From: a virus
Reading direction: 5' to 3' (one strand)
DNA: 23,035 nucleotides
IMG/VR virus record: IMGVR_UViG_3300025423_000091
Coordinates: 1-23,035 of that record
How positions within the stretch are numbered: position 1 is the stretch's first letter; each line of letters starts with the position of its first letter. The notes below the pieces were generated by a model. The model made no database searches. It saw nothing but the letters and a program-made list of their open reading frames with translations, and was not told where the DNA came from. This document shows, piece by piece, positions 11,688 to 11,759 of this stretch. The translations under genes and the position numbers were made by a program.

Positions 11688-11759
11688 ATGTGGAATAAAC
11701 CTACTGCAACAGAAATGCGTTTTGGCTTTGAAGTTACAATGTACGTAATGAATAAATAA
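11688..11759 (+). CDS. pqqA: PqqA, peptide precursor of the cofactor PQQ
   Basis: 23 codons, starting MWNKP and containing RFGFEVTMY. This matches the PqqA pattern (M-W-x-KP, then R-x-GFEVTMY), including Glu15 and Tyr19 in the E-V-T-M-Y core. In known PqqA these two residues are cross-linked by the radical-SAM enzyme PqqE with PqqD, then trimmed and oxidised to PQQ, the redox cofactor of methanol and other quinoprotein dehydrogenases. The ATG is preceded by AAAGGAG at 7 nt spacing, and a strong hairpin follows the stop. No pqqB-E is present in the window, so host enzymes would be needed. It is the only plus-strand gene in this stretch, which suggests an acquired cargo gene. The identification is by motif and length only. 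Confidence 0.85.
   Translation: [23 protein letters not shown]

Follow-up and report, generated by a model that had tools for sequence, protein, structure and literature searches.

An orphan, full-length pqqA gene on a podovirus-like phage fragment and its counterparts in methylotroph phages

In water, methanol use begins with methanol dehydrogenases, whose cofactor is PQQ. Work cited in PMC9851590 and PMC7936290 indicates that one molecule of the precursor peptide PqqA is consumed per PQQ, and that PqqE, together with PqqD, joins the Glu and Tyr of PqqA. That viruses can carry pqqA has been known since 2020, when PqqA was reported in the Lake Baikal virus population VP_266, a predicted Methylophilaceae phage, and support of methanol oxidation was proposed (PMC7678222). 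In a study of reservoir sediment, pqqA is listed among virus-encoded genes (as are pqqE and pqqD) and is interpreted there in terms of phosphate solubilisation (PMC13188868). On the bacterial side, Methylophilaceae were found in a survey to have 3-12 pqqA copies next to a single pqqBCDE (PMC4109929). In the papers that describe Venkman, MEP301, MEP401/402 and Melnitz, pqqA goes unmentioned and PQQ appears once, as a medium supplement.

The window, by which we mean the whole stretch of DNA analysed here, corresponds to a linear virus record of IMG/VR that is 23,035 bases long. The first-pass annotation had proposed that a 23-codon gene within it encodes PqqA. The gene and the features that define its setting are as follows.

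1036 to 1623, plus strand: endolysin with a glycoside hydrolase 19 domain (phrog_181, E 2.9e-77; PF00182)
1625 to 3982, plus strand: virion structural protein of the stabilisation type (phrog_3287, E 2.6e-62)
11273 to 11626, minus strand: RusA Holliday-junction endonuclease, divergent neighbour of pqqA (PF05866, E 5.7e-15)
11627 to 11687, plus strand: 61-bp gap separating rusA and pqqA, which start divergently; presumed pqqA promoter region (same sequence in the related contigs L248-L250)
11674 to 11680, plus strand: Shine-Dalgarno motif AAAGGAG, with the ATG 7 nt further on (read from the sequence)
11688 to 11759, plus strand: pqqA, with ATG start, 23 codons and TAA stop (PF08042, 37.7 bits; TIGR02107, 39.0 bits)
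11756 to 11786, strand not assigned: stem-loop just 3' of the pqqA stop, possible terminator (8-bp GC-rich core at 11762 to 11781)
11892 to 12074, minus strand: small uncharacterised ORF, the other neighbour of pqqA (from the ORF list)
13178 to 13882, minus strand: phosphoesterase (best match in OM43 phage MEP301, 72.5% at the amino acid level)
18458 to 19147, minus strand: ERF single-strand annealing protein of the early module (PF04404, phrog_155)
19908 to 20783, minus strand: phage exonuclease of the PD-(D/E)XK type (phrog_2139, E 2.6e-51)

Profile searches bore out the identification. The window peptide scored well above the cut-offs of both curated PqqA profiles, PF08042 (E 1.9e-9, cut-off 21.1 bits) and NCBIfam TIGR02107 (E 4.8e-10, cut-off 20 bits), covering 19 of 19 and 21 of 21 profile positions, respectively. 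At 23 aa it lies within the approximately 20-30 aa expected of PqqA. The predicted E-V-T-M-Y core is present as E15-V-T-M-Y19 and corresponds to the Glu-x-x-x-Tyr pair that becomes cross-linked in PQQ formation; the DNA pattern of the pqqA core occurred at a single place in the window and was absent from all 100 dinucleotide-preserving shuffles. A PqqA family search of 14 control genomes gave zero matches. Neither PHROGs v4 nor PADLOC gave a match for the peptide. The gene at 11688-11759 is confirmed as a true, phage-borne and full-length pqqA.

The window is a fragment of a podovirus-like phage. The first-pass annotation had called pqqA phage-encoded, and the gene is indeed surrounded by endolysin, virion, RusA, ERF and exonuclease genes; host homologues exist. 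It stands alone on the plus strand between early genes of the minus strand. Further genes recognised by profile include spanin-like genes and an ejection-type protein. Elsewhere in the window, a GNAT acetyltransferase (PF00583) is encoded at 6434-6886 (+) within the late virion operon, and a short lipoprotein-like ORF (MKKSLILFTLIMTGC) lies out of frame inside the Rz-like spanin gene (632-1039 / 828-1028, +), an arrangement resembling a nested Rz/Rz1 pair. Two ORFs of the early module, at 12681-13178 and 19433-19921 (-), look like HNH-type endonucleases by eye. The 17-residue body of the window PqqA has the form found in Methylophilaceae genomes, while Methylophaga and methanotrophs have other forms. 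Given this peptide type and the similarity of the phosphoesterase to that of MEP301, the host is likely to belong to the Methylophilaceae.

Signals around the gene were in part as proposed. Its own ribosome binding site was recovered in the strong Shine-Dalgarno motif at 11674-11680, and among the matches listed an SD-like motif lies no more than 20 nt upstream of pqqA in 238 of 250 viral loci. A promoter search found no sigma-70-like site in the window and no consensus promoter ahead of pqqA. Across 180 non-redundant viral loci among the matches listed, -10-like hexamers were enriched 60-31 nt upstream of pqqA starts (143 observed vs 79 expected). Where enough flank was available, opposite-strand neighbours, as called by a rough ORF caller, were found on both sides in 61 of 138 listed loci, which fits a pqqA with its own promoter. 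The proposed terminator stood only in part: a stable hairpin does follow the stop codon (-18 kcal/mol, z -4.4), but the T-tract expected of an intrinsic terminator is found solely on the minus strand. Since the T run sits on that side, the hairpin may mainly end leftward early transcripts.

The presence of the same 23-codon gene at this locus in related phages had been suggested as a check. Three virus contigs, L248-L250, are the nearest relatives; they carry a RusA that is 93% identical and the same PqqA peptide at the same site. The 61 bp upstream are unchanged and pqqA itself differs by two silent codon changes (GTT/GTA, ACA/ACT), whereas the sequence 3' of the stop codon is wholly different from that of the window and ends in a different hairpin that has a T run. 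One further contig encodes the window-identical peptide with other silent changes. Thus, the nearest relatives show neither stop codons nor loss of frame. A peptide that stays constant while silent sites and flanks vary is the mark of a working gene. Relatives sought via the neighbouring 551-aa virion protein were not found.

The gene is not confined to this group. A peptide search of 50,697 phage records revealed pqqA in Venkman, P19250A, MEP301, MEP401, MEP402, four Melnitz phages and one uncultured phage, so that complete isolate genomes also carry it. Identity to the window peptide was 82.6-91.3% in Venkman, P19250A, MEP301, MEP401 and MEP402 and 72.7% in Melnitz. All matches with a named host were methylotroph phages, apart from two hits to an entry labelled 'Acinetobacter phage MD-2021a'. 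The locus opened there (CAKLQF020000010.1 105210-111263, L008) proved to be bacterial DNA in which ppk and pqqBCDE adjoin the pqqA hit, and the entry was rejected as mislabelled or contaminated. Capsid or terminase genes of the pqqA-bearing isolates are unrelated to one another. In the phage records examined, pqqA was either without annotation or overlaid by an opposite-strand ORF, and none was labelled pqqA. In the T4-like Melnitz phages the gene lies immediately before a tRNA-Leu gene (Melnitz-1, MZ577095.1 74888-75053). Methylophilales phages MEP431-434 were looked for in the phage collection and not found; they are possible exceptions to the presence of pqqA.

Virus contigs were scanned with degenerate DNA patterns for the PqqA core rather than with the short peptide. 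Two such scans of IMG/VR yielded at least 120 loci each, and the same gene is present in at least 240 other virus sequences, mostly unannotated. Subsequent comparisons used a set of 250 loci among the matches listed (243 IMG/VR contigs, 6 phage records and the window), which comprise 214 distinct gene sequences and 79 peptides. Clustering at 95% identity gave 221 clusters, and even loose joining left 82 groups; both figures are approximate as the loci were trimmed. At least 183 of the 250 have another ORF in common with the five complete phages or the window.

Within this set the gene is conserved in detail. Among the matches listed, pN/pS was 0.27 at codons left free by the search patterns (214 sequences), and true constraint is probably stronger because synonymous sites are near saturation. 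Arg11 is invariant among the listed matches and is written with five codons. Glu15 and Tyr19 were kept in 120 of 120 listed loci when the pattern left both positions free. The stop codon was not part of the pattern, and 228 of the 250 listed peptides are exactly 23 aa long, the rest being 24-25 aa. The low pN/pS and the retention at the same site in relatives indicate that pqqA is maintained by selection in phages. The gene is also an orphan: PqqB-E were found in none of the 250 listed viral loci when their trimmed DNA was searched, and a PqqE search of 12 whole virus records gave one weak radical-SAM match only. A PQQ alcohol dehydrogenase was detected in one of 40 long virus records. This 72-kb contig with orphan pqqA, L276, encodes the enzyme in a 628-aa frame (G041:C1:34049-35731, 608 bits), like published Baikal phages.

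A host lacking pqqB-E had been named as grounds for rejecting the idea. We analyzed 14 low-GC or aquatic Methylophilaceae-type draft genomes, which were chosen for having pqqA (14/14 by construction), while copy number and the remaining genes played no part in the choice. The genomes carry mostly three scattered copies of it. Matches over the cut-off were obtained for pqqB, pqqC, pqqD and pqqE in 12 of the 14 each, where misses may be gaps in the drafts. For host-type genomes the objection thus failed. A PQQ alcohol dehydrogenase was matched in all 14, with 10 scoring over the cut-off. Two uncultured Nitrosomonadales genomes of low GC, which resemble OM43 in GC and peptide, contain two tandem pqqA genes with differing peptides (MWTQP... 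then MWTKP...; L159 7092-7346 and L168 2472-2728) and a third copy elsewhere. Multiple pqqA copies beside a single pqqBCDE mean that hosts multiply the consumed peptide and not the enzymes, and phages appear to do likewise.

We favor the reading that host PqqB-E receive extra PqqA from the phage, which in this way sustains PQQ for methanol dehydrogenase (probability about 0.8); expression, conversion and benefit are what we infer. During infection of a Methylophilaceae host of the OM43/Methylopumilus type, the phage would make additional PqqA peptide, which host PqqD would present to host PqqE. PqqE would cross-link Glu15 to Tyr19, and a host protease, PqqB and PqqC would complete PQQ. In this manner PQQ, and hence methanol dehydrogenase and the energy supply, could be kept going after takeover of host transcription. 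The peptide alone would be the cheapest supply, since each PQQ costs one PqqA, while the enzymes serve repeatedly. According to work cited in PMC9851590, added PqqA was turned into PQQ by a cell-free extract, and work cited in PMC7936290 places pqqA second when single pqq genes are ranked by how far they raise PQQ in Gluconobacter. Against a large effect, PMC7936290 also gives a PQQ gain of 29% with pqqAB in Acetobacter vs eightfold with pqqABCDE. Host genomes already have several pqqA copies, so a phage copy need not add much.

Other explanations have to be weighed against substrate supply. A short, orphan peptide encoded apart from its pathway genes could in principle act as a substrate analogue that jams the pathway, occupying host PqqD/PqqE without yielding PQQ and shutting methanol oxidation down. 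Against such a decoy or inhibitor, both cross-linked residues are present in 120/120 listed loci with those positions free, and the phage peptide is nearly identical to host copies. Moreover, the occurrence of a PQQ dehydrogenase on the pqqA-bearing 72-kb contig and in a published Baikal phage points to boosting, and we regard inhibition as very unlikely. The closeness of host and phage genes could also mean that pqqA was merely picked up from host DNA and leaves infection unaffected. Host and phage copies are approximately 82% identical on average, four viral sequences equal a host sequence, which shows that transfers happen, and hosts commonly have single pqqA genes scattered through their genomes. 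A passive passenger is nevertheless difficult to reconcile with the pN/pS of 0.27 over 214 listed sequences, with the retention of exact length, ribosome binding site and reactive residues in many phage lineages, or with the persistence of pqqA in L248-L250 while flanking DNA was replaced; we consider it highly improbable.

Substrate supply might also be correct with its main benefit elsewhere, the PQQ serving another quinoprotein or acting as an antioxidant. Methylophilaceae genomes have more than one quinoprotein-type gene, and roles of PQQ besides methanol oxidation have been reported. Methanol dehydrogenase is, however, the main PQQ enzyme of methylotrophs, the known-host phage records infect methylotrophs, and a PQQ alcohol dehydrogenase accompanies pqqA on one virus contig, leaving a main benefit other than methanol oxidation very unlikely. 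With a mere 23 codons, the ORF could have arisen by chance or have entered a virus assembly as host contamination, and one other match in the phage collection was bacterial contamination. Here, profile E-values near 1e-9, phage genes on both sides, the same site in relatives and the lack of pqqB-E neighbours speak against this explanation, and the complete isolate genomes with pqqA refute it; we assign it a negligible chance. Substrate supply for methanol oxidation hence remains our preferred reading.

The presence of pqqA in the cultured methylophages found here and hundreds of virus contigs suggests that these viruses keep methanol oxidation running during replication. What the phage would supply is not an enzyme but the substrate that a peptide-derived cofactor pathway uses up, which is economical and fits the many pqqA copies of hosts. 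It appears rather likely that methylotroph phages of unrelated lineages have in orphan pqqA one of their commonest metabolic genes, overlooked as too short for gene callers, and that supply of a precursor peptide is a general infection strategy. Host-phage pairs in culture (Venkman, Melnitz, MEP301, MEP401/402) make the proposed role testable. What appears to be new is the breadth of orphan pqqA across unrelated methylophage lineages and at least 240 virus sequences; it was not found described in the open-licence literature and may have been described elsewhere.

In comparison with known systems, the window PqqA is closest in kind to the host PqqA of Methylophilaceae, with which it shares length, Glu/Tyr core and 17-residue body, and which is often isolated from pqqBCDE too. 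It differs in lying in a phage genome and in carrying Asn3 and Thr6 where Thr3 and Ala6 are common. Baikal VP_266 is T4-like and encodes a methanol dehydrogenase of its own, whereas the window, a 23 kb fragment, is podovirus-like and carries the precursor only. Venkman, P19250A, MEP301, MEP401, MEP402 and Melnitz encode an orphan PqqA peptide like that of the window, although they belong to differing phage lineages and carry the gene at differing sites.
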